A program made the translations under genes and the position numbers. From NCBI GenBank assembly GCA_900155415.1, contig LT700187.1, forward strand, positions 1,674,001-1,738,000: DNA of 64,000 bases, in the 5' to 3' direction. This DNA comes from Christensenella massiliensis (lineage in GTDB: Bacteria > Bacillota > Clostridia > Christensenellales > Christensenellaceae). The notes under the pieces were generated by a model. It had not been told where the DNA came from. It searched no databases and was given only the letters and a program-made list of their open reading frames with translations. Below, piece after piece: positions 36,271 to 55,398 of this stretch (its first letter is position 1; the number at the start of each line of letters is the position of its first letter).

Positions 36271-36300
36271 ATTATAGAGGGGGAAGATATGGTTTGTAAA
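36271..36300 (-). promoter_or_regulatory. Sigma-A promoter of the YbjQ gene
   Basis: On the minus strand, TTTACA (36295-36300), an 18 bp spacer and a perfect TATAAT (36271-36276). Confidence 0.75.
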
Positions 36301-36304
36301 CAGA

Positions 36305-36337
36305 TAAAAAATACGGCATGACTTTCGCCATGCCGTA
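36305..36337 (-). terminator. Intrinsic terminator of the radical SAM gene
   Basis: TACGGCATG and CATGCCGTA pair. On the minus strand the stem is followed by TTTTTTA. Confidence 0.85.
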
Positions 36338-41987: not shown

Positions 41988-42047
41988 TTGGTGTTCCCCC
42001 AAAGATACTGATCCAGAGTCCTGCAAGTGCTTCGGGCGCAGAGCGTA

Positions 42048-42075
42048 ACAGATAAACGGCCACAGATAAATGGCC
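42048..42075. repeat. Tandem 14 bp duplication in the lipoprotein leader
   Basis: ACAGATAAACGGCC is followed directly by ACAGATAAATGGCC, one mismatch. With the adjoining GGCCGTT the region can also form a small hairpin. Confidence 0.6.
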
Positions 42076-42117: not shown

Positions 42118-42339
42118 TAGGGATCTTGACGCCTGCGGGCTGTCGGGAAAAGACTGAAAGGAAACCGGCAGCGCCATTGTACGGAAAGTGGATTTATTTG
42201 TTAGTTTGTAAGGACAATAAGCCCGCCGGAAAAATAGCAGGGATGGAAAGCAAAAAATGCCTTTGTCACAGCACTTTTGCAATAGGAGGAGCAAGCGTAA
42301 AAAATTTGCAAAATATTCTTTAAAAAACAAGAATTTGGA

Positions 42340-42368
42340 TTGCTATTTCCGTAAAAAAACGATACAAT
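42340..42368 (+). promoter_or_regulatory. Sigma-A promoter of the hydrogenase operon
   Basis: TTGCTA (42340-42345), a 17 bp spacer and TACAAT (42363-42368). The start site would be near 42375, at the edge of the Rex-like dyad. Confidence 0.7.
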
Positions 42369-42377
42369 AAAAAGGCA

Positions 42378-42393
42378 TGTTAAATAATTAACA
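42378..42393 (+). promoter_or_regulatory. Rex-like operator
   Basis: TGTTAA-ATAA-TTAACA matches the Rex consensus core TGTTAA-N4-TTAACA exactly. It lies just after the predicted start site of the hydrogenase operon. Rex is the NADH/NAD+-sensing repressor of fermentation genes in Firmicutes and Thermotogae. Confidence 0.7.
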
Positions 42394-42435
42394 ATGTTTG
42401 CGCGGAAGCGCAGGGAATTTTAGGAGGTCTTAGAT

Positions 42436-42900
42436 TTGGAGAACGCGGAAATGCGGCAGGTTCTGGATACGATCCTGTCCGAGCACACAAAAAAGTCGGA
42501 AATCATTCCTATCTTACAGGCGATACAAAAGGAATATCGCTATCTTCCCGAGGAAGCGCTTTGCTATGTTGCGAAAAAGCTGCATGTGGGAGAGGCGAAA
42601 ATTTATTCGATCGCAACGTTTTATGAGAATTTTTCTCTCGAGCCGAAAGGAAAATATGTCATCAAAATTTGCGACGGAACGGCCTGCCATGTGAGGCGGT
42701 CGATCCCGATCTTGGAAGCGCTGCGCAAAAAACTCGGGCTTTCCGAACAGAAAAAAACGACGGACGATATGCTCTATACGGTAGAGACGGTCTCATGCCT
42801 TGGCGCGTGCGGGCTGGCGCCGGTTCTTACGGTAAACGATAAGGTCTACCCCGCTATGACGCCGGATTCGGCCTGCGAGCTGATCGATACCCTGAAATAA
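42436..42900 (+). CDS. hydC: HydC, NuoE-like subunit of electron-bifurcating [FeFe]-hydrogenase
   Basis: A 154-residue thioredoxin-fold [2Fe-2S] protein of the NuoE family. The cluster cysteines are in ICDGTACHV and CLGACGLAP. The N-terminal helical part (IIPILQAIQKEYRYLPEEAL) and IYSIATFYENFSLEPKG are typical. The start is a TTG at 42436, 8 nt after AGGAGG; an ATG at 42451 is too far. It is the first gene of the hydrogenase operon behind a promoter and Rex-like operator. With HydB and HydA it should couple NADH and reduced ferredoxin oxidation to hydrogen production, or the reverse. Confidence 0.93.
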   Translation: MENAEMRQVLDTILSEHTKKSEIIPILQAIQKEYRYLPEEALCYVAKKLHVGEAKIYSIATFYENFSLEPKGKYVIKICDGTACHVRRSIPILEALRKKLGLSEQKKTTDDMLYTVETVSCLGACGLAPVLTVNDKVYPAMTPDSACELIDTLK

Positions 42901-42939: not shown

Positions 42940-44814
42940 ATGATACATAACGTAAGGGAACTGAATAAGTTTAAAAATCAATATAAAAAGTCAATGGAAG
43001 CCCAGTACAAAAAAGTATTGGTCTGTGCGGGAACCGGTTGCGTGGCGGGCGGTTCGCTCGAGATATTTGAACGGCTGAAACAGCTTACCGAAGAGGCGGG
43101 AATGCCCGTTTCGGTCGAGCTCAAGAAAGAGCCGCACGAGGAGATCGCTTTTAAGAAAAGCGGATGCCACGGTTTTTGTGAAATGGGGCCGCTCCTCCGC
43201 ATCGAGCCGTTTGGCTGGCTGTATGTGAAGGTAAAGCCGGAGGATTGTGAGGAGATACTCGAGAAGAGCCTCAAAGGAGATGAGCCGGTGGAACGTCTCC
43301 TGTTCCATCAGGACGGGAAAGCATACGCGGCAGAGGAAGAAATACCATTCTATAAGAAACAGACGCGTATCGTGCTTTCCAATTGCGGCCATACGGATGC
43401 GGAAGCGATCGAGGAATACATCGCGCGCGGCGGCTATCAGGCTGTTGCAAAAGCGCTCTTCGATATGAAAACAGACGATATCGTGCAGGAGGTGATGGAT
43501 TCCGGCCTGCGCGGACGAGGAGGCGGCGGCTTCCCCACGGGCAGAAAGCTGCAGCAGGTGGCAAAGCAAAAAGAGGTGCGGAAATTTGTCGTGTGCAACG
43601 GCGATGAGGGAGACCCGGGCGCGTTCATGGATAGGAGCATCATGGAAGGCGATCCGCATAAGATGATCGAGGGCATGATGATCGCCGGGATCGCGACGGG
43701 CGCGCACGAGGGATATATTTATGTCCGTGCGGAATATCCGCTGGCAGTAAAACGCCTGCAAACAGCAATCGCTGCTGCGGAAAAGCAAGGGCTTTTGGGA
43801 GATAATATTTTAGACAGCGGATTCGACTTCACGCTGCGGATCAATCAGGGCGCGGGCGCGTTCGTATGCGGCGAAGGTAGCGCGCTCACCGCTTCCATCG
43901 AGGGCAACCGCGGCATGCCGCGGGTAAAGCCGCCGCGCACGGTAGAGCAGGGCTTGTTCGGAAAGCCTACGGTGCTGTCGAATGTGGAGACGTATGCCAA
44001 TATTCCGATGATCATCCTAAACGGCTCGGATTGGTTCCGCAGCATGGGAACGGAAAACAGCCCGGGCACGAAAGCGTTTGCGCTGACGGGAAACGTCAAT
44101 AATACAGGCCTTATAGAGGTGCCGATGGGCACGACGCTGCGCGAGGTCATTTTTGATATCGGCGGCGGTATCAAAAACGGTAAAAAGTTCAAGGCGGTGC
44201 AGATCGGCGGGCCGTCCGGCGGCTGCATGACGGAGGAACACCTCGATATGCCGATGGATTTCGATTCCCTCAAGAAAAAAGGCGCGATGATCGGTTCGGG
44301 CGGCCTCGTGGTAATGGACGAGGATAATTGTATGGTGGAAGTGGCGCGGTTCTTCATGAATTTTACCCAGAATGAATCGTGCGGGAAGTGTGTTCCCTGC
44401 CGCGAGGGCACGCTGCGCATGCTCGAGATACTGGAACGGATCGTTGCAGGCAAAGGAGAACGGGAAGACCTCGATATGCTCGAAGAGCTCGCGGATATGA
44501 TATCCAAGACCGCATTGTGCGGGCTCGGGAAAACAGCTCCGTCTCCGGTCATCAGCACGATGAAATATTTTCGGGACGAATATCTCGCGCACGTTGTGGA
44601 CAAAAAATGCCCCGCGAAGAACTGTCAGGCCATGAAGCGCTATGTGATCATAGAAGAAAAATGCAAGGGCTGCAGCAAATGCGCGCGCCAGTGCCCGGTA
44701 AACGCGATCAGCGGAGAAATCAAGAAGCCGTTTGTGATCGACGCGGATAAGTGCATCAAGTGCGGCGCATGCGAGACCGCGTGCAGCTTCGGCGCGGTCA
44801 CCGAGCAGTTTTGA
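42940..44814 (+). CDS. hydB: HydB, NuoF-like flavoprotein subunit of bifurcating hydrogenase
   Basis: A 624-residue subunit binding FMN, NAD(H) and several Fe-S clusters, the likely bifurcation site. An N-terminal thioredoxin-like [2Fe-2S] domain spans 25-105. The NuoF core has RGRGGGGFPTGRK (191-203) for FMN/NADH and GDEGDPGAFMDRS. A 4Fe-4S site uses Cys481, Cys484, Cys487 and Cys527. Two C-terminal 4Fe-4S ferredoxin motifs use Cys575-578-581-585 and Cys605-608-611-615. This layout matches HydB of Thermotoga- and Acetobacterium-type HydABC. It lies 39 bp after hydC and 42 bp before hydA. Confidence 0.95.
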   Translation: MIHNVRELNKFKNQYKKSMEAQYKKVLVCAGTGCVAGGSLEIFERLKQLTEEAGMPVSVELKKEPHEEIAFKKSGCHGFCEMGPLLRIEPFGWLYVKVKPEDCEEILEKSLKGDEPVERLLFHQDGKAYAAEEEIPFYKKQTRIVLSNCGHTDAEAIEEYIARGGYQAVAKALFDMKTDDIVQEVMDSGLRGRGGGGFPTGRKLQQVAKQKEVRKFVVCNGDEGDPGAFMDRSIMEGDPHKMIEGMMIAGIATGAHEGYIYVRAEYPLAVKRLQTAIAAAEKQGLLGDNILDSGFDFTLRINQGAGAFVCGEGSALTASIEGNRGMPRVKPPRTVEQGLFGKPTVLSNVETYANIPMIILNGSDWFRSMGTENSPGTKAFALTGNVNNTGLIEVPMGTTLREVIFDIGGGIKNGKKFKAVQIGGPSGGCMTEEHLDMPMDFDSLKKKGAMIGSGGLVVMDEDNCMVEVARFFMNFTQNESCGKCVPCREGTLRMLEILERIVAGKGEREDLDMLEELADMISKTALCGLGKTAPSPVISTMKYFRDEYLAHVVDKKCPAKNCQAMKRYVIIEEKCKGCSKCARQCPVNAISGEIKKPFVIDADKCIKCGACETACSFGAVTEQF

Positions 44815-44856: not shown

Positions 44857-46575
44857 ATGACTGACAAAAAACACATGATCATAGATGGACAGATCGTTAA
44901 TTTTGATAAGGAGCAGAATATACTCGCGGTGATCCGCAAGGCGGGGATCGATCTGCCGACTTTCTGCTACTATTCAGAGCTCTCTATTTACGGCGCGTGC
45001 CGCATGTGCGTAGTGGAAGACGAATGGGGCGGGATCATCGCCTCATGCTCTACGCCGCCGCGCGATAAAATGAAGATCAAGACCAATACGCCGCAGCTGT
45101 TCCGTTACCGGAAAATGATTTTGGAACTGCTTCTGGCAAGCCATTGCCGTGACTGTACGACATGCCCCAAAAACGGGAAATGCCGCCTGCAGGAGCTGGC
45201 GCTCCGGTTCGGCATCGACAGTGTGCGTTTTGAAAATACAAAAAAAGAAGCGGTGGTAGACGATTCCGCGCTTTCCATTATCCGAGATTCCTCCAAATGC
45301 ATTCTGTGCGGTGACTGTGTACGTATGTGCTCAGAGATCCAGAATGTAGGCGCGATCGATTTTGCATACCGCGGCTCGGACATGACGGTCTCCACCGCGT
45401 GGGGAAAGCCGCTTGCCGAAACGAACTGCGTCAACTGCGGCCAGTGCGCGTCGGTCTGCCCGACAGGCGCGATCGTGATCCGCAACTGCACGCAGAAATT
45501 CTGGGATGCGATCTATGACGACTCGAAGCGTGTTGTAGTACAATTCGCGCCCGCCGTCCGTGTAGCGCTCGGCGACGAATTCGGCCTCGAGCCGGGCACG
45601 AACGTTGCAGGCAAGATCGTGGGCGCGCTCCGGAAAATGGGAGTGGACGAGGTATACGATACGACGATGGGCGCAGACCTTACGGTCATGGAGGAATCCA
45701 AAGAGTTTGTGAAAAAGTATAAGGCGGGGAAAAAGCTGCCGCTCTTTACATCCTGCTGTCCGGCATGGGTAAAATATGCGGAACACGAGCATCCGGAGCT
45801 TGTAGAGCAGATCTCCACCTGCAAATCGCCGATGCAGATCTTCTCGGCGGTCATCAAGGAGCACTTCAAGCAGGTGCAGGAGGTGGACGGGAAGGAGACG
45901 GTCGTGTTCGCGATCATGCCGTGTACGGCGAAAAAAGATGAACAGGTACGGCCGGAATTTATTTATGAGGATGGCTCGCGTGATACGGACGGCGTTATCA
46001 CTACGCAGGAATTTGCGAGCATTCTAAAACAGGCAGGCATCGTCTTCGAAGACGTCGAGCCGGAAGCGGCGGATATGCCGTTCGGCATCACGTCGGGCGC
46101 GGGCGTGATCTTTGGCGTGACGGGCGGCGTTGCGGAAGCAGTCATTCGCAGAGTAGTAGATGACAAAAGCAATAATATGTTGCATAATATAGCATATACC
46201 GGCGTGCGCGGTATGGAGGGCATCAAGGAGGCCAGCATTCCATACGGCGAGGGCCGTGTGAAGATCGCTGTAGTAAACGGTCTTGCCAATGCAGAGAAGC
46301 TGATCGAACAGATCGAGATCGGGGAGGCAGAATACGATTTTGTAGAAGTCATGGCCTGCCCGGGCGGGTGCATTGCAGGTGCGGGGCAGCCGTTTACCCG
46401 CATGGAAGGGAAAAAAGAACGTGCGAAAGGCCTTTACGATGCGGACAAGCTGTCGCAGGTCAAGCGTTCGGAAGAGAATCCGGTCATGATGGCGCTGTAC
46501 GGAGGTATCTTAAAGAATAAGACACACGAGCTGCTGCATGTGGATTACAATAAAAGGGAGGAAGTTGCAAAATGA
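44857..46575 (+). CDS. hydA: HydA, catalytic [FeFe]-hydrogenase subunit
   Basis: A 572-residue group A [FeFe]-hydrogenase. N-terminal [2Fe-2S] domain (Cys37, Cys48, Cys51, Cys64), His-Cys3 4Fe-4S site (His96, Cys100, Cys103, Cys109), then two 4Fe-4S motifs (Cys148-158 and Cys191-201). The H-cluster motifs are complete: TSCCPAW (298-304), MPCTAKKDE (354-362) and MACPGGC (499-505). The proton-relay Cys is present, so it should be active. A small-subunit-like tail ends the protein. Its stop overlaps the start of the next gene. The maturases HydEFG are not in the window. Confidence 0.97.
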   Translation: MTDKKHMIIDGQIVNFDKEQNILAVIRKAGIDLPTFCYYSELSIYGACRMCVVEDEWGGIIASCSTPPRDKMKIKTNTPQLFRYRKMILELLLASHCRDCTTCPKNGKCRLQELALRFGIDSVRFENTKKEAVVDDSALSIIRDSSKCILCGDCVRMCSEIQNVGAIDFAYRGSDMTVSTAWGKPLAETNCVNCGQCASVCPTGAIVIRNCTQKFWDAIYDDSKRVVVQFAPAVRVALGDEFGLEPGTNVAGKIVGALRKMGVDEVYDTTMGADLTVMEESKEFVKKYKAGKKLPLFTSCCPAWVKYAEHEHPELVEQISTCKSPMQIFSAVIKEHFKQVQEVDGKETVVFAIMPCTAKKDEQVRPEFIYEDGSRDTDGVITTQEFASILKQAGIVFEDVEPEAADMPFGITSGAGVIFGVTGGVAEAVIRRVVDDKSNNMLHNIAYTGVRGMEGIKEASIPYGEGRVKIAVVNGLANAEKLIEQIEIGEAEYDFVEVMACPGGCIAGAGQPFTRMEGKKERAKGLYDADKLSQVKRSEENPVMMALYGGILKNKTHELLHVDYNKREEVAK

Positions 46576-46814
46576 TGACGATCAACATTTGTATCGGGAG
46601 CGCGTGCCATTTAAAAGGCTCGTATAATGTGGTGAGCGAGCTGCAGGAGATGATCGAGGAGTATAAGCTCGGAGACAAAGTAGAGCTTACGGGCGTGTTT
46701 TGTCTCGGGCATTGCACCGATGCGGTCTCCGTACAGATCGGAGACGAGATTTTTTCCGTAAATACGGATAACGTAGGAGATTTTTTCCAGAAGCAAGTAT
46801 TGGAACGGATATGA
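46572..46814 (+). CDS. Small thioredoxin-like [2Fe-2S] protein
   Basis: An 80-residue stand-alone [2Fe-2S] ferredoxin of thioredoxin fold. The cluster cysteines are in CIGSAC near the N-terminus and CLGHC near residue 45. It overlaps the hydA stop codon (ATGA), so translation is coupled. Proteins like this are found beside hydrogenase and sensory hydrogenase genes and probably carry electrons between HydABC and the sensor encoded next. A second ATG at 46575 could also serve. Confidence 0.85.
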   Translation: MMTINICIGSACHLKGSYNVVSELQEMIEEYKLGDKVELTGVFCLGHCTDAVSVQIGDEIFSVNTDNVGDFFQKQVLERI

Positions 46815-46900: not shown

Positions 46901-48613
46901 ATGTCGATCATTCAGTTTAAGGAAGCCAACTGCAAGAACTGCTACAAATGTATCAGAAGCTGTCAGGTCAAATCGATCGCTTTTAAAAATGAGCAGGCGG
47001 AGATCACGGAAAAGGAATGCATTTTATGCGGGCATTGCTTTTTGGTCTGCCCGCAGAACGCGAAATATGTAGAGAGCAGTATCGATAAAGTAAAAGGATT
47101 CATCAGTAACGGAGATAAAGTATATGTTTCGGTGGCGCCGTCTTTTTCGGCTTGTTATAAAAATGTGACGTTCCCGAAAATTTCTTCTGCACTCAAAAAG
47201 CTTGGATTTACGGGGGTGGAAGAGACCTCGATCGGCGCGGCAAAGGTTTCGAAAAGCTTTATGGAGCTGATGGAAAAGCATGAAATGAAGAACATCATCA
47301 CGACCTGCTGTCCGACGCTCGTTCTGCTGGTGGAAAAATACTATCCGGAGCTGATCCCCTATCTTGCACCGGTGGACGCTCCTATGACGGCGCACGGGAA
47401 AATGATGAAAGAGGTTTACGGGCCGCGTATCAAAACGGTGTTCGTTGGGCCGTGCATTTCGAAAATACACGAAGCGCGGGAATCGGACGGTGCGATCGAT
47501 GCGGTGCTTTTGTTTGACGAGCTGATGCAGTGGCTGGAAAGCGAGGGGATCGACCTCGAGGCGGAAGACCCGGATGTGCGGGAAATGAAAGCGACGGTGA
47601 ACCGCTTATATCCGGTTCCCGGAGGCATCATCCAAACGATCGATAAGCCGATACGTCAGAACTACAAATGTGTGGCGGTCGATGGGATCGACCGTTGTGC
47701 GGAGGTTTTGGATTCCCTGCGGTCGGGAGAGCTTGAAAATTTCTTTTTGGAGATGAACGCATGTCCGGGAAGCTGTCTTGGAGGGCCGGGCTCTAAAGAG
47801 ATCGCGATCCCATTCCTGCATGTAAAAGACCGTACGCTGCAATATGCAAAGAACCGTACCGCATGCAGCGTGCCGGTAACGGAGGATATCAGTTTGGACA
47901 TCAGCCGGGAATATACGGACCGTTCGCTTCACCGCCGTGTTCCGAGTGACGAAGAGATCAGGCAGATATTCGTGCGTATGGGAAAAACGAGCGAGGATAA
48001 AATACTCAATTGCGGCGGCTGCGGTTATCCGACCTGCCGCGATAAAGCGATCGCCGTCCTGCAGGGAAAGGCGGACATCAAAATGTGCCTGCCGTTCATG
48101 CGCGAAAAAGCGGAGAGTATTTCAAACGTAGTGCTTGACAACACGCCGAATGCGATCGTGATACTCGACAGCGATTTCAACCTGATGGAATACAACAAGG
48201 CTGCGGCGGAGCTGTTCCGCTTGAATGAAAGGAACTATGTGGGCAGGCCCGTTTCCATGATCATCGACTGCGATGATGTCGACGAAGTGAAAAAGACGGG
48301 GGAAAATATTTTCGACCGTAAGGTGTTCTATAAAGACCTCGGTATTACGGTCAAGCAATCGACGATCTTTATCAGAGAAAATTCTATGTACCTGCTGCTC
48401 ATAAAGGATATTACAGAAGACGAACGGCAGCAGAAAAAGATTGGAGAGATGCGCGCGGAAACAATGGAAGTAACGCAGGAGGTAATCAATAAGCAAATGC
48501 GCGTAGCGCAGGAGATAGCAAGCCTCCTCGGCGAGACGACGGCAGAAACGAAGCTGGCTCTCACCAGCCTCAAGAAATACATTCAGGAGAGTGAAGATGA
48601 GCGTATTTATTGA
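46901..48613 (+). CDS. hydS: HydS-type sensory [FeFe]-hydrogenase with PAS domain
   Basis: A 570-residue group C (sensory) [FeFe]-hydrogenase. Two 4Fe-4S motifs at the N-terminus (Cys11-21 and Cys40-50). The H-cluster motifs are altered: TTCCPT (134-139) in place of TSCCPAW, GPCISK (183-188) for MPCTAK and NACPGSC (286-292) for MACPGGC. A further 4Fe-4S domain uses Cys371, Cys374, Cys379 and Cys396. A PAS domain spans 405-500, followed by a coiled tail. No kinase domain follows; the output is probably the phosphatase encoded next, whose start lies inside this gene. It is thought to report H2 or redox state. Confidence 0.9.
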   Translation: MSIIQFKEANCKNCYKCIRSCQVKSIAFKNEQAEITEKECILCGHCFLVCPQNAKYVESSIDKVKGFISNGDKVYVSVAPSFSACYKNVTFPKISSALKKLGFTGVEETSIGAAKVSKSFMELMEKHEMKNIITTCCPTLVLLVEKYYPELIPYLAPVDAPMTAHGKMMKEVYGPRIKTVFVGPCISKIHEARESDGAIDAVLLFDELMQWLESEGIDLEAEDPDVREMKATVNRLYPVPGGIIQTIDKPIRQNYKCVAVDGIDRCAEVLDSLRSGELENFFLEMNACPGSCLGGPGSKEIAIPFLHVKDRTLQYAKNRTACSVPVTEDISLDISREYTDRSLHRRVPSDEEIRQIFVRMGKTSEDKILNCGGCGYPTCRDKAIAVLQGKADIKMCLPFMREKAESISNVVLDNTPNAIVILDSDFNLMEYNKAAAELFRLNERNYVGRPVSMIIDCDDVDEVKKTGENIFDRKVFYKDLGITVKQSTIFIRENSMYLLLIKDITEDERQQKKIGEMRAETMEVTQEVINKQMRVAQEIASLLGETTAETKLALTSLKKYIQESEDERIY

Positions 48614-49769
48614 GACGAACAGCGAAAGCCTGTTTAAACACGGAGAAGAGCTGTGCGGAGATAAGGTGGAGATCGTCCGCAAGGGCGATGTTACGACGAT
48701 CGTTCTGGCCGACGGGCTTGGAAGCGGCGTGAAAGCGAATATCCTTTCTACGCTCACCAGCAAGATCGCTGCGACGATGCTTTCCGAAGGTGCGGACATC
48801 TATGAAACGGTAGAGACGGTAGCGTCTACGCTCCCCGTATGTGCGGAGCGCGGTTTGGCTTACTGTACGTTTACGATTTTGCGCGTCAATACGGACGGGA
48901 AAGCGCACATGGTGGAATTTGATAATCCGCAGGCTATCATTCTGCGCGCGGGAAAAGAAGTGCCCGTGGAGAAAAAGGAGATCACGATCGGAGATAAGCA
49001 GGTCCTCGAAAGCCGTTTCACAATGCAGGAGGGTGATATGTGCCTTGCTTTTTCCGATGGGGCGATCCATGCGGGGGTGGGGCAGACCCTTAATTTCGGA
49101 TGGCAGCGCGATAATATTGTGGAGTATGCGTGCCGCGCCTATCGAAAGGATATGCCTGCCCGTGCGATGACAAAGCTGATGCTCTCGGCCTGTAATTCGC
49201 TTTACGACGGCCGCCCGGGGGATGATACGACCTTCGTTACAACGAGGATACGGCATGCGCAGCCCGCTTTCATCATGGTCGGCCCGCCGGTAGATCCTTC
49301 GCGCGACAAAGAGTTAGTCGAACGGTTTCTGAAAGCGGACGGCATTAAGGTAGTATGCGGAGGAACGACCTCACAAATCGTCAGCCGCGTATCGGGCAGA
49401 GATCTTAGGGTCAAGATCGACTATAAGGATACAGGCGTGCCGCCGACCGGAATAATAGAGGGGATAGATCTTGTTACGGAAGGTGTCGTGACGCTTGCGA
49501 AGGCGTACGAGATCATGAAGATCTATATGTCGGAGGAAAGCGAGATGGAGGAACTGTTCGACATCTTCAAGCAGGACGGGGCTTCGCGGCTCGCACGGCT
49601 CTTACTGGAGGATTGTACGAGCGCGCATTTTACGGTTGGGCGTGCGGCGAACCCGGCGCACCAAAACCCCGATCTTCCCATTGACCTCAGCCTCAAGCTG
49701 CGTATGGTGAAAGATATTGCGAAGATCCTCCGGCAAATGGGAAAAGAGGTAGAGGTAGAATACTGCTGA
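48597..49769 (+). CDS. SpoIIE/PP2C-type serine phosphatase
   Basis: A 390-residue protein whose first half (about 1-220) is a PP2C-like phosphatase of the SpoIIE family: TTIVLADGLGSGVKANILST, FDNPQAIILRAGKE, LAFSDGAIHAG and the metal-binding GDDTTFVTTRI. The second half (about 225-390) lacks a domain I recognise but resembles tails seen on hydrogenase-linked phosphatases. The ATG at 48597 follows GGAG by 7 nt and overlaps the sensory hydrogenase gene by 17 bp. It probably dephosphorylates a partner in answer to the hydrogenase-PAS sensor. The target protein is unknown; no anti-sigma pair is seen nearby. Confidence 0.85.
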   Translation: MSVFIETNSESLFKHGEELCGDKVEIVRKGDVTTIVLADGLGSGVKANILSTLTSKIAATMLSEGADIYETVETVASTLPVCAERGLAYCTFTILRVNTDGKAHMVEFDNPQAIILRAGKEVPVEKKEITIGDKQVLESRFTMQEGDMCLAFSDGAIHAGVGQTLNFGWQRDNIVEYACRAYRKDMPARAMTKLMLSACNSLYDGRPGDDTTFVTTRIRHAQPAFIMVGPPVDPSRDKELVERFLKADGIKVVCGGTTSQIVSRVSGRDLRVKIDYKDTGVPPTGIIEGIDLVTEGVVTLAKAYEIMKIYMSEESEMEELFDIFKQDGASRLARLLLEDCTSAHFTVGRAANPAHQNPDLPIDLSLKLRMVKDIAKILRQMGKEVEVEYC

Positions 49770-51338
49770 ATGGTCATCAGGACGCTTGTTTTAAAACTGC
49801 ATAGGCCAACGGCGGCCAAGCGTTTACTGCTCGATCAGGCAATCATGCGGTATAACCGGGCGCTTTCCTACCTGTTTGAGCATACGCAGGATAATATGGA
49901 GACGGTTCTGAAAGAAATGCAGGGCGGCAGGGCGCATCTCACGCGGCGTATCATGGGCCTTTTGAAAAAGGAACTGATGGATAAGCTGAATGTATTCGGC
50001 GTACAGCCGTTTAAGGATGCACTGAAAATGGATTATGCCATGATGATGGTCGCATGGCTTTCTCTGCGGCGGACACAGAGAAAGGCGCGTTATCCGCAGG
50101 TACTGGATGAGGAACTGTTTGAACGCCGCTTTTGGGAGACAATTCGGGAATTTGACGATGGAATGATTGGGCGGGATGGACTTAAGGCCCGGGTCAACAG
50201 GCTGTATAACGGCTATGGCATCAGTAAACCGTTATTTTTTGGCCGGTATGCAAAAAACAGGGATTATTGCCTGCTTTATGATGAAGAGCACGACCGGTTT
50301 TACGCTAAGCTATACCTTCTCAATGTAAAAGCGCCGGAACGCCGCGGAGGCATTGCGCGGGGAAGCTGCCGGCTGAGGTATGTGACGGCGGATAGAGCTC
50401 TTCTTGAAGAAGATAACCGCCGGGAACGGTATATCGTGGCGCCGCTTTCGTTTGGAAAAGAGCAGGAGGCCGTTCTTAAGGAGGGGCTTCAAAATCCCGG
50501 TATCTTTAAGACTGCACGGTTGCTTCGGAAAAACGGCGCATACTATCTTTCCGTCAATATAGCATGTGAATGCAGGCAAAAGGAAAGAAGCGAAACCTAT
50601 ATGGGCATTGTGCGTAGCCTGAAAGAGGCGGTGCGGTATGCGGTCGTGGACCGGAAAGGAATACCTGTCGCAGAAGGCGGGCTTCCATACGGGGAGAAAA
50701 TAACGACTAAAAATGGGATGCATGCCGCGGCAAACGAGCTGGTACGCGTCGCGCAGGAATATAAAAGCCATATCGTCTCTTACCGCATGGGAAATATCGG
50801 CGATAAGCTTACATACGGCGCGGAGAGGGCAAGGCTTACAGCGGGAACTTTCAATCAGCTGATGGCGATGGTGAATTATAAGGCGGAGCTCAAAGGCTTA
50901 AAAAAACCGGTATTCGTAAGTCCGCGGGGTATCTTTACTACTTGTCCGCGATGCGGGACCAATACACAGCGGAACAGGTTCCCGGGCGGCCGTATGATAT
51001 GTGTAAAATGCGGCTGCGCGGGAGACATCGAAAAAAACGGCCCGCTGAATGCGGCGCGCAGGCTGTTGAAATACAGGGGAACCACTTTGCTGTTTTATGC
51101 AAAAAAAACGGAAGCGGGGCTGCTGATCCATAATGACGTCCTGCGGCTTGCTTATCTTGCGGAACCCACGCAGGAGGGCATAAAAGGCTTTTTCAAATTT
51201 GTGGAAGAAAAGGTACGGGAGATGAAGCGGCAGCAAGACAGACTATGCGGTGGAACTGCACGCGAGGTCAGCTATCGGAAACGGTTTATGAATATTCAAA
51301 GCGCGCGTGACGAGATATCGATCGTTGATGAAGAATAG
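49770..51338 (+). CDS. TnpB-like protein with degenerate RuvC site (possible TldR-type RNA-guided regulator)
   Basis: A 522-residue TnpB/OrfB-family protein. The N-terminus (KLHRPTAAKRLLLDQAIMRYNRAL) fits the TnpB start. A four-cysteine zinc ribbon (Cys392, Cys395, Cys411, Cys414) and LNAARRLL follow the TnpB order. The three RuvC acids appear replaced: GIVRS has Val281 for the Asp of GIDxG, IVSYRM has Tyr338 for the Glu of VVEDL, and PLNAA has Pro425 for the last Asp. So it should not cut DNA. The ATG follows the phosphatase stop with no gap (TGAATG), no TnpA or transposon ends are seen, and a structured RNA follows. I infer domestication into the hydrogen-sensing operon, perhaps as an RNA-guided repressor. 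Confidence 0.82.
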   Translation: MVIRTLVLKLHRPTAAKRLLLDQAIMRYNRALSYLFEHTQDNMETVLKEMQGGRAHLTRRIMGLLKKELMDKLNVFGVQPFKDALKMDYAMMMVAWLSLRRTQRKARYPQVLDEELFERRFWETIREFDDGMIGRDGLKARVNRLYNGYGISKPLFFGRYAKNRDYCLLYDEEHDRFYAKLYLLNVKAPERRGGIARGSCRLRYVTADRALLEEDNRRERYIVAPLSFGKEQEAVLKEGLQNPGIFKTARLLRKNGAYYLSVNIACECRQKERSETYMGIVRSLKEAVRYAVVDRKGIPVAEGGLPYGEKITTKNGMHAAANELVRVAQEYKSHIVSYRMGNIGDKLTYGAERARLTAGTFNQLMAMVNYKAELKGLKKPVFVSPRGIFTTCPRCGTNTQRNRFPGGRMICVKCGCAGDIEKNGPLNAARRLLKYRGTTLLFYAKKTEAGLLIHNDVLRLAYLAEPTQEGIKGFFKFVEEKVREMKRQQDRLCGGTAREVSYRKRFMNIQSARDEISIVDEE

Positions 51339-51356
51339 TCAAGGCAGGATATTTAT

Positions 51357-51362
51357 AGTATA
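51357..51362 (+). promoter_or_regulatory. Minus-10 element before the structured RNA
   Basis: A perfect TATAAT in the 3' end region of the TnpB-like gene, 7 bp before the structured RNA begins. The matching minus-35 is poor (TAGTCA at 51334-51339). Confidence 0.45.
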
Positions 51363-51368
51363 ATTGTC

Positions 51369-51513
51369 ATAGGCGCATTTTGCTGCCGCGCCGGCCTACT
51401 GGGCTCTTGCCGAAAGACGGGGCCCGGAGGGAACTTCCGCCGAGCGGAACGCGCTACGCGCGAAAAGTGCAGCTATCTGTCCGGAAAAGGCGGAGTGGCT
51501 GCACTCCGCCTTT
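51369..51513 (+). ncRNA. Structured RNA with alternative terminator/antiterminator pairing
   Basis: GC-rich non-coding segment packed with hairpins: GGCGC/GCGCC (51370-51390), GGGC/GCCC enclosing CCG/CGG (51399-51423), TTCCGC-CGA-GCGGAA (51433-51447) and GCGC-TAC-GCGC (51449-51459). It ends in a 13 bp terminator (51483-51513). The loop and 3' arm of the terminator (GCTGCACT, 51496-51503) can pair instead with AGTGCAGC (51464-51471), which would break the terminator. I match it to no riboswitch class I know. Its place directly after the TnpB-like gene also suits a guide RNA (omega RNA). Confidence 0.65.
51483..51513 (+). terminator. Conditional intrinsic terminator
   Basis: AAAAGGCGGAGTG and CACTCCGCCTTTT form 13 bp around a 4-nt loop, followed by T. 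The 51514-51603 remainder holds a small hairpin ATACCCA/TGGGTAT and the ribosome site of the next gene. Confidence 0.85.
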
Positions 51514-51603
51514 TTGCTTGCGGTGAAAAATTGGTTAATACCCATGCGCTGTGGGTATCTATATATCTGAAAAATTATTTTTTCAATATGCAAGGGGAGA
51601 AAA

Positions 51604-52053
51604 ATGAAACACTTTTTTTCGGGAACAGCAGGAAAAGTAACGATCGTAACAGCAGTTCTCCTGCTTGTTTTATGCGTTTTTCTGGCGAAAACGATGCAGG
51701 AGGAGAAAAAGGCAGATATAGAGCCTGCTCAGGCTATGCAGGAATGGACGCAGGACGGTTTGCCCGTTTTCGTCGATTTTACGGCCGACTGGTGCTCTTA
51801 TTGCCGGGAAATGGAACCGGTGATCGAGGAGCTGCGGGAAGAATATCGGGGAAAAGTATCGTTTGAAACAGTCGATATAGACCGGCAGAAGAAGCTGGCA
51901 AAGGAATTTGGTGTTGCCAGCGTTCCGTTTTATTTACTGCTTAGCGCAGATGGAGAGCCTATCGCTTACTATCCGGGAGCCGCGGAAAAGGAAACGCTTG
52001 CATCTATGATCGACGATGGAACGGCAGGATTGCTTTCGGGGGATAATGAATGA
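51604..52053 (+). CDS. Membrane-anchored thioredoxin-like protein
   Basis: A 149-residue protein. One membrane segment (residues 11-29) anchors it with the thioredoxin domain outside. The active site is WCSYC (63-67), with the cis-Pro loop in GVASVPFYLL. AGGGGAG precedes the ATG. Its stop overlaps the ccdA start (ATGA at 52050-52053). With CcdA it should form a thiol-reducing relay across the membrane, for protein disulfide reduction or cofactor assembly. The structured RNA with a conditional terminator lies directly upstream and may control it. Confidence 0.88.
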   Translation: MKHFFSGTAGKVTIVTAVLLLVLCVFLAKTMQEEKKADIEPAQAMQEWTQDGLPVFVDFTADWCSYCREMEPVIEELREEYRGKVSFETVDIDRQKKLAKEFGVASVPFYLLLSADGEPIAYYPGAAEKETLASMIDDGTAGLLSGDNE

Positions 52054-52736
52054 CAGACTTGCTTGCTCAGTTAGGAGAATTGATTTCTCAGAATTTGTGG
52101 ATCGGTCCGCTTGCAGCGTTTGCCGCAGGCGTGCTGACGTCGCTCACACCATGTTCGCTTTCCACATTTCCGCTCGTGATCGGTTATGTGAGTGCCGGGA
52201 AGAGCGGAAAGCGGTCTGCGTTCCTGTATTCACTTTTGTTTTGCCTCGGGATGACTGCAACATTTACAGGCATTGGCATCGTGCTTGGAATATTAGGGCA
52301 GCAGCTCACCGCTATGGGAAGCTGGTGGTATCTCATATTAGGAGCTTTGATGGTCTTTATGGCGCTTGTGATGTGGGATGTGATAAAGCTGTTTCCTGCA
52401 TGCGGCGTGCGGCAGACCACTACGAAAAAGGGCGGGCTTGGTGCGTTTTTGCTTGGACTTCTCGGAGGTGCGTTCGCGTCGCCGTGCGCGACTCCGGCGC
52501 TTGCAGCGATTCTGGCAGTCGTTTCAAGCGGGATCAGTCTTGGGTTCGGAGCATGGATGCTTATTACCTATTCGATAGGCAACAGCCTGCTCATTATTGC
52601 AGTCGGAACGGGAATCGGCGCAGCCAATCAGCTTGGAAGCTCGGGACGGTTCGCGGCAGCAGGAAAATGGGTACGGCTCGCGCTTGGCGCGGCAATTTTG
52701 ATTCTTGGCCTATATCTGCTTTATTTAGGGTTCTGA
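52050..52736 (+). CDS. ccdA: CcdA/DsbD-type thiol-disulfide transmembrane protein
   Basis: A 228-residue membrane protein with six hydrophobic segments. The paired redox cysteines are in LTPCSLS (Cys35) and ASPCATPAL (Cys146), in helices 1 and 4 as in the CcdA family. It passes electrons from cytoplasmic thioredoxin to an outer thioredoxin-like protein, here clearly the product of the overlapping upstream gene. No cytochrome c maturation genes are in the window, so another thiol-dependent process is likely. Confidence 0.92.
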   Translation: MTDLLAQLGELISQNLWIGPLAAFAAGVLTSLTPCSLSTFPLVIGYVSAGKSGKRSAFLYSLLFCLGMTATFTGIGIVLGILGQQLTAMGSWWYLILGALMVFMALVMWDVIKLFPACGVRQTTTKKGGLGAFLLGLLGGAFASPCATPALAAILAVVSSGISLGFGAWMLITYSIGNSLLIIAVGTGIGAANQLGSSGRFAAAGKWVRLALGAAILILGLYLLYLGF

Positions 52737-52761
52737 TGGAATATACGCAACGGGGTAGCTT

Positions 52762-55398
52762 ATGGACCACAAAAAGAATTGGAGATTAAAAAATATCAAC
52801 GCCCTGCTTATCGTGGTTGTCGTTATTATTTCGCTCGGTGTGTTTGCATTTGCAGGGATGACCATTATCAATACAGATAATCTTGCAACTTATACCGCCG
52901 AAATCTACAGCAGGCCTTATGCGGTCAATAATGCTGCATGGCAGATGCGTGCGCAGATATTGTTTGCACGGAATACGATGCTCAATTTACTGCTTGACGA
53001 TGAGTATGGAGTAGACGCGGAAGAAAAGCTGCAGGCTTTATACAAAATGCGCGAAGAAATACCCGGATTGGAGCAGACTCTGCAGACGCAGTATGAGGGA
53101 GATGAGGAGACGGTCGCCCGGCTTATCAGCGAGGTGGAAAGGTTAAGACGGCTTCATGACGAATGTATTGAACTTATAAAGGCCGGAAACATACGGGAAG
53201 CGGGTGAAATATTGTATGGAAGCGCCTATCCGCTCTATTCGGCTGCGGAGATGCATGCACAGGAGCTGATCGGCCATTCACAGGAGAAGATAGACGCCTA
53301 TGTCGCACAGTCGTATGCCCTGAATGAGCAGACCAATCAGCTGGCATTGATCTGGGGCCTTGCTCTTGTTGCGCTCGCAGTATTGTTGTCTGTAGTCAGT
53401 GTCCGCACGATCACGAAACGCAACGGGGACATTTTCCGCAGCAATACGCTTTTCCGCATTATTTCTGAAAATGTAGACGACGTATTTATCGTTTATGATA
53501 TAGCACGGAAAAGCGTGGAATATGTCAGCGACAATGCAGAGCGTATTCTGGGTTTTTCTCCGTCGGAATACAGGGGGGATCCCCCGCTCGCAAGGGAATA
53601 TCTCGATGAAAAAACGTTCCGCCGCCTGCGTGACCATTTCTGGGATGCAGAAGGCGGGGAGATACAGGAAGAGTTGTTTTTGATGACCGATCCTAAGACG
53701 GGGAGCAGACGGGAATGCATCAGCCGCAGATATCCGATCGTGGAAAATGGGAAGATCACAAAAGCAGTTTTTGTGACCAGCGATCTCACCGAACAGAAAC
53801 GCACCCAAAATATGCTGCGTACAGCACTGGAAAGAGCGGAAAACGCCAATGTTGCCAAACGGGAATTTCTGTCACGTATGAGCCATGAGATCAGAACGCC
53901 CATGAACGCAATGACGGGAACGCTTCGCGCAATGGAATATGATATAGATAACTCCGGAAAAATGAAAGAGCATTTGCGCAAGCTCAATATGTCTGCCATG
54001 CATCTGCTTGACCTGATCAATGACATTCTCGACATGTCGAGGATCGAGAGCGGGAAAATACAGATAGAATCACGGCCGTTCAGCCTGAATGCCATGCTCA
54101 GTGAGCTTACGGACATCATGCAGACAAAAGCGGAAGAAAACAGGCAGGCTTTCAATGTTTTGCTGAAAAGTACGAGCTGCGATATGGTGAAAGGCGACGA
54201 CACCCGCATCAAGCAGGTGCTTCTCAATTTTCTGTCCAACGCGATCAAATTTACGCCGCCGCACGGTAAGATAAGGATGTCCGTGGAGGAGATCGAGAGG
54301 CGTGGGAATCAGGTTCTGCTGAAATTTGAAGTGCGGGATACCGGGATCGGAATGCATGAAGAATTTTTAAAGCGCCTGTTTGAGCCATTCGAGCAGGAGC
54401 AAAATTCCACCTACCGTAAATATGGAGGAACGGGTCTCGGGATGGCGCTCTCCAAGGCGCTTGTCGAGTCGATGGGCGGAGAGATCATGGTAGAGAGTGT
54501 ACCGGATATGGGGAGCGTGTTTTCTTTCTGCCTATGGCTCGAAGCTGCCGGCGCGGGAGGAAGTTCTGTGCAGATATCAGATAAAGTAAAAAATCTGCGC
54601 GTATTGGTGATAGAAGATGATGAAGAGATGCGGGAGCATCTGAAGCTGCAGTGCAGGCAGCTCGGTGTCGAGGCAGAGGCAGTCGCATCCGGGTTAGAGG
54701 CGGTCAGAACGCTTCGTAATACGAAGAGAAAATTCGATTTGTGCCTCATAGACCTGTATATGCCGGATGTAGACGGCATCCATACTGCGGAATGGATACG
54801 CAAAAGCGCGGGAAAAGATACGTTCATTGTGCTGATGTCCGCGTATGACCATAAAAAGATAGAGAAAGAGGCGGTTGCGGCCGGAGTAGATGCATTCCTA
54901 ACGAAGCCGGTCATGCGGGCAGATATCTATCGGGTGCTGCAGGATATGAGCGGAGAGGAAGTGACGGTCAGTGAAGAGGACGGCATGGAGGACTATGATT
55001 TTGCTGGGAAACGGCTTTTGATCGCGGAAGACAACGAACTGAATATGGAAGTGGCGCAAGAGCTGTGCGAGCATGTGGGCTTTGAGGTGGAATGTGCATA
55101 TAATGGAAAAATCGCTGTAGAAATGTTTGAACAGTCGCCTGTAGGTTATTATGACGCGATACTGATGGATGTGCATATGCCGGCCATGAACGGGAACGAG
55201 GCGGCACAGACTATCAGAAATCTGAAGCGGAAGGATGCCGGTTCGGTCGTAATCATCGCAATGACGGCCAATGCGTTTTATGAGGACGAGGTGGAGGCGC
55301 TCAAAAGCGGGATGAACGCACACATGGCAAAGCCGATCGAACCGGAAGCGATATTTGCGGCGTTGAAAAAATTCCTGTATGATAATAAAGAAGAATGA
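52762..55398 (+). CDS. Hybrid sensor histidine kinase with two receiver domains
   Basis: An 878-residue membrane sensor. Membrane segments at about 13-34 and 195-216 enclose an extracytoplasmic helical domain of about 160 residues. Then a PAS domain (225-345), HisKA with His375 (FLSRMSHEIRTPMNAM), HATPase (LLNFLSNAIKFTPP, DTGIGM, GGTGLGMALSK), receiver 1 (Asp664 in CLIDLYMPD) and receiver 2 (Asp803 in ILMDVHMP). The start site is weak (GGGGTAG). It follows ccdA by 25 bp and is followed by an Hpt protein and an HD-GYP response regulator, giving a full phosphorelay. The input signal is unknown; thiol or redox state is suggested only by context. Confidence 0.93.
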   Translation: MDHKKNWRLKNINALLIVVVVIISLGVFAFAGMTIINTDNLATYTAEIYSRPYAVNNAAWQMRAQILFARNTMLNLLLDDEYGVDAEEKLQALYKMREEIPGLEQTLQTQYEGDEETVARLISEVERLRRLHDECIELIKAGNIREAGEILYGSAYPLYSAAEMHAQELIGHSQEKIDAYVAQSYALNEQTNQLALIWGLALVALAVLLSVVSVRTITKRNGDIFRSNTLFRIISENVDDVFIVYDIARKSVEYVSDNAERILGFSPSEYRGDPPLAREYLDEKTFRRLRDHFWDAEGGEIQEELFLMTDPKTGSRRECISRRYPIVENGKITKAVFVTSDLTEQKRTQNMLRTALERAENANVAKREFLSRMSHEIRTPMNAMTGTLRAMEYDIDNSGKMKEHLRKLNMSAMHLLDLINDILDMSRIESGKIQIESRPFSLNAMLSELTDIMQTKAEENRQAFNVLLKSTSCDMVKGDDTRIKQVLLNFLSNAIKFTPPHGKIRMSVEEIERRGNQVLLKFEVRDTGIGMHEEFLKRLFEPFEQEQNSTYRKYGGTGLGMALSKALVESMGGEIMVESVPDMGSVFSFCLWLEAAGAGGSSVQISDKVKNLRVLVIEDDEEMREHLKLQCRQLGVEAEAVASGLEAVRTLRNTKRKFDLCLIDLYMPDVDGIHTAEWIRKSAGKDTFIVLMSAYDHKKIEKEAVAAGVDAFLTKPVMRADIYRVLQDMSGEEVTVSEEDGMEDYDFAGKRLLIAEDNELNMEVAQELCEHVGFEVECAYNGKIAVEMFEQSPVGYYDAILMDVHMPAMNGNEAAQTIRNLKRKDAGSVVIIAMTANAFYEDEVEALKSGMNAHMAKPIEPEAIFAALKKFLYDNKEE

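Follow-up and report, generated by a model that had tools for sequence, protein, structure and literature searches.

What does a TnpB-like protein with lost catalytic acids do at the end of a hydrogen-sensing operon? The question is raised by a 64,000-nucleotide (nt) stretch of the Christensenella massiliensis genome (assembly GCA_900155415.1, contig LT700187.1, positions 1,674,001 to 1,738,000 of the forward strand; hereafter the window), in which a 522-residue TnpB/Cas12f-like protein, here called dTnpB, is encoded at 49770..51338 on the plus strand, behind the sensory hydrogenase HydS and a SpoIIE-type serine phosphatase (SpoIIEp). The initial annotation of this DNA had described a nuclease-dead TnpB homologue in a hydrogen-sensing operon. 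This description is supported by the presence of SpoIIEp upstream of dTnpB in 22/22 loci (6 from the genus, 12 from outside it, and L152, L153, L154 and L158), by the parallel distances of the two proteins and by a dedicated, covarying RNA. We consider it likely that dTnpB and this putative guide RNA form an RNA-guided transcription factor with a small regulon, occupying the output slot of the H2 sensor.

Fold, catalytic positions and inheritance of dTnpB

The assignment of dTnpB is based on profile matches, alignment and a predicted structure. The product of the open reading frame (ORF) matches the Pfam family Cas12f1-like_TNB above its gathering score (8.4e-7), and the NCBIfam models guided_TnpB (1.9e-9) and Cas12f2 (8.3e-12) below their cut-offs. 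In the predicted model (predicted local distance difference test, pLDDT, 70; predicted template modelling score, pTM, 0.43), a Cas12f-like fold spans residues 1-437 and includes a zinc ribbon (C392, C395, C411, C414). V281 and Y338 occupy the positions of the RuvC-I Asp and the RuvC-II Glu, each at one end of a predicted strand (276-282 and 333-338, respectively). Among 18 aligned dTnpB sequences, position I is acidic in none and position II is Tyr, Lys or Gln in 17, the locus L072 having Glu. The initial annotation had claimed three lost RuvC acids, with P425 as the third position; V281 and Y338 were retained, and P425 was ruled out, since profile alignments place the RuvC-III Asp of five solved TnpB/Cas12f chains on E421. 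This column contains Asp in 6 and Glu in 11 of the 18 homologues, and Gly in L008. Because positions I and II are non-acidic while the E421 column stays Asp or Glu, sequence comparison indicates that dTnpB has lost two of the three RuvC acids, the third being kept or turned into Glu.

Residues 438-522 lie beyond the Cas12f/TnpB fold and are common to the 18 aligned homologues. This C-terminal extension, which begins at about residue 438, may be where the phosphatase or RNA polymerase makes contact.

The gene is single-copy in its own genome (a single contig of 2.56 megabases) and has an orthologue in all six genomes of the genus, the other five proteins being 50-68% identical to that of the window. 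Seven of 18 genomes of the family match dTnpB, the seventh (G017) weakly and in the zinc-ribbon region only, and all six matching genomes of an order sample (297 genomes, 1e-10) belong to the genus. In a class sample of 391 genomes, 18 match at 1e-6 and 14 of these matches are full-length (families f1, f52, f53, f57 and f84); the four weak ones (G413, G425, G613, G651) were excluded as partial, as was G017. The own genome is the sole match in a phylum sample (398 genomes, E<=1e-30). Back-translated dTnpB peptides detected no relatives in genome_contigs or viral_contigs, and the phage matches are two records of one Pseudoalteromonas phage, with 24% identity.

The order hydC-hydB-hydA-80aa-hydS-SpoIIEp-dTnpB is kept in 6/6 species of the genus, which excludes a recent transposon remnant confined to one genome. 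The SpoIIEp family, found in 104 of the 391 class genomes (E<=1e-60), is far wider than dTnpB, so that dTnpB corresponds to an addition in 14 of these 104 genomes. The distances of dTnpB and SpoIIEp run parallel (r 0.96 for 18 loci and 0.97 for the 12 loci outside the genus). The ratio of nonsynonymous to synonymous substitution rates (dN/dS) is 0.12-0.20 for dTnpB in five pairs, with dS up to 2, and 0.03-0.05 for SpoIIEp.

A candidate guide RNA and candidate promoter sites

The present analysis adds two elements that were absent from the initial annotation, an RNA at 51371-51483 and promoter sites in relatives. A related RNA, as judged by sequence, is present right behind the dTnpB stop codon in 22/22 loci. 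In the window, the candidate guide-RNA scaffold (51371..51473, plus strand) starts with a hairpin 1 whose loop GCTGC (51382-51386) can pair with GCAGC (51469-51473) in a pseudoknot. It is followed by the candidate guide TATCTGTCCG (51474..51483, plus strand) and, right after the guide, by an intrinsic-terminator-like hairpin (51484..51516, plus strand) with perfect arms at 51485-51497 and 51502-51514. In the 15 RNAs from outside the genus, 97.2% of the pair cells are paired, versus a mean of 89.3 in shuffled alignments (0/500 as high), and pairing falls to 15-51% when the alignment is slid by 1-3 positions. The pseudoknot is 100% paired, with changes on both sides in L070, L074 and L072. One of five covariation measures, further pair types, is no better than in shuffles (162/500).

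A covariance model of these 15 RNAs (R1, genus excluded) has its top match at 51371-51478 of the window (E 2.2e-6; next 0.1) and recovers 5/5 congeners at E<1e-6. Of its 15 matches in the 391 class genomes, 14 fall in the genomes with dTnpB; the other one, in G018 (E 4e-4), lies inside a gene for a 1172-residue protein and was taken as chance. We took as chance also the two of ten matches of an RNA pattern scan that come without dTnpB (L151, L157); four others (L149, L150, L155 and L156) were taken as G445, G577, G468 and G528 and counted once. Rfam yielded nothing at gathering score across the window and nothing at E<=10 for 51300-51600. After the pseudoknot, the motif UAUCU (TATCT in DNA) is invariant in 22/22 aligned RNAs. 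The guide is necessarily short because the hairpin starts 5-24 nt past the first U of this motif (10 in the window, 5-13 in 19/22 RNAs, and 24, with a weak hairpin, in L072). Further downstream, about 150-320 base pairs (bp) past the dTnpB stop and behind the guide RNA, the loci L073-L078 contain a strongly conserved noncoding block (AAAGGGGAGTAGC...), which is present in 6/6 Ruminiclostridium-type loci and has no Rfam match at gathering score (L073).

In relatives, the motif AAAAACC(G/A/T)TATCT(A/G) precedes the hyd or hydS operon. In intergenic DNA upstream of SpoIIEp, ACCNTATCT is present in 11/18 dTnpB loci (G445 read from L114) versus 0/20 HydS-SpoIIEp loci without dTnpB (Fisher 2.6e-5); the motif was first spotted in the same loci, so that 11/18 is no independent test and 0/20 provides the contrast, the 20 controls being hand-chosen from the upper part of a list of 90 phosphatase genomes without dTnpB and one of them (L331) offering 107 bp of intergenic DNA only. 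Outside the genus, 10/12 loci have the site and L073 and L075 are near misses. Reckoned from predicted promoters, the f53 loci have a proximal seed at -59 in 4/4 cases (TATCA in L069), 23 bp before TTGACA, and a second seed copy at -88 to -90, and the f57 loci have a seed at -78 in 6/6 cases (TATTT in L073). In L011 and L012, an AACC-TATCT site abuts the -35 element, with the seed near -45.

In the sites, G is found at the sixth place only where the guide has G (5/13 versus 0/10 sites, p 0.046), and across 23 sites the fit is better for own guides than for permuted guides (runs, p 0.007; matches, p 0.04; kinship uncorrected). The agreement with the guide of the same genome amounts to 8 nt for the three sites of G445 and to 10 for one site of L070.

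In the 12 genomes from outside the genus, AAACCRTATCTR occurs at 57 places, 19 of which are intergenic, including 10 hyd or hydS promoters. Three of the others precede NfnA-like genes of the PRK06222 family (G349, G375, G468), two precede NuoE/HoxE-like genes of G445, three precede alcohol dehydrogenase genes (G349 once, G375 twice) and one is without a clear gene (L082). The proportion of intergenic places (19/57) exceeds that of a permuted motif (4/49, p 0.002; the 49 are distinct places examined from a list of 61). The motif itself was derived from the 10 hyd places. The f52 and f53 genomes alone give 8/20 versus 4/18 (p 0.31), and we do not claim an enrichment beyond the hyd promoters. Redox or alcohol genes are located behind 8/9 non-hyd intergenic sites versus 0/4 in the permuted control (p 0.007, the gene labels having been assigned after seeing the matches), and the predicted promoters at these sites are weak or absent.

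The motif AAAACCGTATCTGA is located inside a gene for a 183-residue ATPase-like protein in the second hyd operon of 4/4 f53 genomes (L093, L095, L096, L120). Three consecutive codons are identical there in the four genomes, as are 11/49 comparable triplets; this place is suggestive only of a possible intragenic target.

Activation, repression and other readings

In the mechanism that we propose, dTnpB and the RNA behind its gene would be a domesticated TnpB/Cas12f module, in which the protein would keep the RNA- and DNA-binding fold minus RuvC acids I and II. The 3' end of the RNA would serve as a guide of very few nucleotides, whose seed UAUCU(G/A) hardly varies, and the complex would bind promoter sites AAACC(G/A)-TATCT(A/G), ACC-N being the putative target-adjacent motif. 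The sites that relatives have upstream of the -35 of hyd/hydS and in front of genes for Nfn-like proteins, NuoE/HoxE-like proteins and alcohol dehydrogenases would constitute a small regulon, making dTnpB a small-regulon transcription factor and not a one-target silencer, with HydS sensing H2 and the SpoIIE-type phosphatase relaying the signal. Such a system would probably be a switch for how cells dispose of electrons. Activation is favoured because the seeds near -59, -78 and -90 lie upstream of -35, and the site positions suggest a lean in this direction, with repression as a possibility. We tentatively propose a host-encoded, H2-controlled RNA-guided activator, whose guide would measure about 10 nt and contain a fixed seed of 5-6 nt, acting like an ordinary global regulator. 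Its regulon could, again as a tentative suggestion, comprise hydrogen, ethanol and NADPH genes, its activity being set by the sensory hydrogenase via the phosphatase.

Several results weigh against an RNA-guided regulator of this kind. Past TATCT, most sites match the guide by 0-3 nt only. The 57 places of AAACCRTATCTR are about as many as those of the reversed control, and without the 10 hyd places the intergenic proportions are 9/47 versus 4/49 (p 0.14). In L152, which is outside the 18-locus count, the available 241 nt contain no ACCNTATCT site. The case is weakest in the genus of the window itself, where the hyd site is exact in 1/6 species (L011, with L012 as a near miss) and no other target is found; the place of the window that aligns with the L011/L012 site (42322..42339, plus strand, next to -35) is unrecognisable as a site. 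A candidate guide-target match next to a promoter is present in 10/12 loci outside the genus, 1/6 inside and none in the own genome, in which guide and motif searches found no target. The motif CAGCTATCTG occurs at 27 places in six genomes, six of which are the RNAs; the one place recurring in three genomes (L015, L016 and L020) corresponds to codons at a gene start and was judged to be coding conservation. With two mismatches, TATCTGTCCGGAA has 6 places in the window versus 1.2 expected, none at an evident promoter, and in the hyd promoter the -10 strand contains TTGTATCTG in 2/6 species. CCRTATCTGWS has 57 places (reversed pattern 32), with three intergenic among the 51 examined and no common gene, TATCTGTCCG has 25 places in three genomes with no common promoter, and AAACCRTATCTR with <=2 mismatches has 13 places in the window, as chance predicts.

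Two other groups of motif copies were noted on the minus strand of the window. Two TTTATCTGT copies, 14 bp apart (42039-42066), are located about 380 bp upstream of hydC, a pair absent from the corresponding place in other species of the genus. AAACCATATCTT and TTTTATCTGT stand close together at 36284-36311, between convergent ORFs, with no evident promoter role.

The same RNA-guided binding could instead repress the hyd operon and the redox genes, possibly acting as a brake when H2 is high. TldR precedents repress (PMC13418256), the site of L011 and L012 abuts -35 with its seed near -45, and the intragenic AAAACCGTATCTGA site recurs in 4/4 f53 genomes. However, most hyd sites, at -59, -78 or -90, are upstream of -35 and would not block polymerase, and we regard repression as rather unlikely. 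It is less probable still that AAACC-TATCT is bound by a different transcription factor. The site would then resemble the RNA end by chance or because the RNA mimics it, and dTnpB would act elsewhere. The shared core of only 5-6 nt, the small number of non-hyd sites and the lack of a site in most species of the genus would fit such a factor, but not the absence of sites from the 20 loci without dTnpB, nor the tracking of the guide by the sixth-place G and the better fit of own guides.

A dTnpB that binds its own transcript, for processing, termination or RNA-level control, and no DNA appears improbable. It would be consistent with a conserved RNA that ends in a terminator right after 5-24 nt and with the lack of a DNA target in the own genome, but it is at odds with the full Cas12f-like fold, with a pseudoknot scaffold positioned as in TnpB guide RNAs and with the promoter-site contrast. 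Finally, a recently captured or still active nuclease is very improbable, despite the acid at RuvC position III in 17/18 sequences and the Glu at II in L072, since the RuvC-I acid is missing in 18/18 and the gene is found in one fixed place in 22 loci, under the dN/dS given above and with one copy in its own genome.

The hydrogen-sensing operon and related systems

The operon of the window, on the plus strand, encodes HydC (NuoE-like [2Fe-2S] subunit, 42436..42900), HydB (NuoF-like flavin subunit, 42940..44814), HydA ([FeFe]-hydrogenase large subunit, 44857..46575), an 80-residue thioredoxin-like [2Fe-2S] protein (46572..46814), HydS (sensory [FeFe]-hydrogenase with a PAS domain, 46901..48613) and SpoIIEp (392 residues, the likely signal relay, 48591..49769). 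An [FeFe]-hydrogenase with a PAS domain adjoining a signalling phosphatase fits a HydS sensory hydrogenase operon. As initially annotated, the dTnpB ORF starts right behind the TGA that ends the phosphatase gene, with no base between them. As to the accompanying statement that TnpA and transposon ends are lacking, no TnpA-like neighbour gene was seen, in an analysis without a formal search for transposon ends.

A predicted hyd promoter with a palindrome (42340..42394, plus strand) has, by eye, the -35 TTGCTA at 42340-42345 and the -10 TACAAT at 42363-42368. Right behind the -10, the palindrome ATGTTAAATAATTAACAA (42377-42394) is kept in 6/6 species of the genus and resembles a Rex operator, so that the promoter may be controlled by NADH/NAD in addition to H2. 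Behind the RNA, the window (51604-52736) and L009 have thioredoxin and DsbD-like genes; the remaining four species of the genus lack them there and have the hybrid kinase gene next. An AdhE-type gene is located within the sensor operon of L067, L069 and L152, between SpoIIEp and dTnpB, and its product has about 870-880 residues. That of L067 is AdhE (NF010378, 1452.8 bits) and those of L069 and L152 are alike at the N-terminus; L070 has a gap of similar size at this place. The AdhE-type gene inside the sensor operon links H2 sensing to ethanol formation.

Among known systems, transporter-linked TldR proteins exist beside fliC- and csrA-linked ones. dTnpB resembles TldR proteins in its TnpB/Cas12f fold and derivation, broken RuvC site, adjacent putative guide RNA, domesticated partner genes in a stable non-transposon link, and short seed. 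It differs from them by its link to a hydrogen sensor and a phosphatase, its C-terminal extension, a guide that a terminator limits to 5-24 nt and whose seed hardly varies, and several candidate targets per genome, mostly upstream of -35. TldR proteins are repressors, and guides of 6 nt are reported to suffice in the fliC TldR (PMC13418256). Unlike the TnpB of IS200/IS605 elements, dTnpB has no intact RuvC triad. Unlike type V-F CRISPR-Cas systems (Cas12f), it has no CRISPR-like repeat array beside it within 47500-53500; it shares with Cas12f the fold over residues 1-437, the zinc ribbon and a pseudoknotted RNA, but differs by its lost RuvC acids and by having the RNA encoded behind its gene. 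Nuclease-dead Cas12f (dCas12f) with a sigma factor carries out RNA-guided transcription, and dTnpB, if an activator, would also be a case of RNA-guided activation, but no sigma-factor gene was noticed beside it in the loci read. The HfsABCD/HydS systems of thermophilic and ruminal clostridia likewise have a HydS-type sensor with a PAS domain, with no RNA-guided output described in the accessible part of PMC5707799, whereas here dTnpB is present in 14/104 class genomes with this phosphatase. We found no description of such a system in the open-licence literature.

When hfsB, which codes for a HydS homologue, is deleted, adhE expression is reported to rise by an unknown route (PMC5707799). Here, adhE, alcohol dehydrogenase and Nfn-like genes are neighbours of dTnpB or of its candidate sites. 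The RNA, the seed and the sites make the dTnpB system directly testable. If the proposal is true, RNA-guided transcription control would be tied to a metabolic sensor, and TnpB domestication would extend from one-target silencing to a regulon. It would also give a concrete answer to how HydS/HfsB alters alcohol dehydrogenase expression (PMC5707799), an answer that would apply to cellulose-degrading Ruminiclostridium and to the genus of the window.
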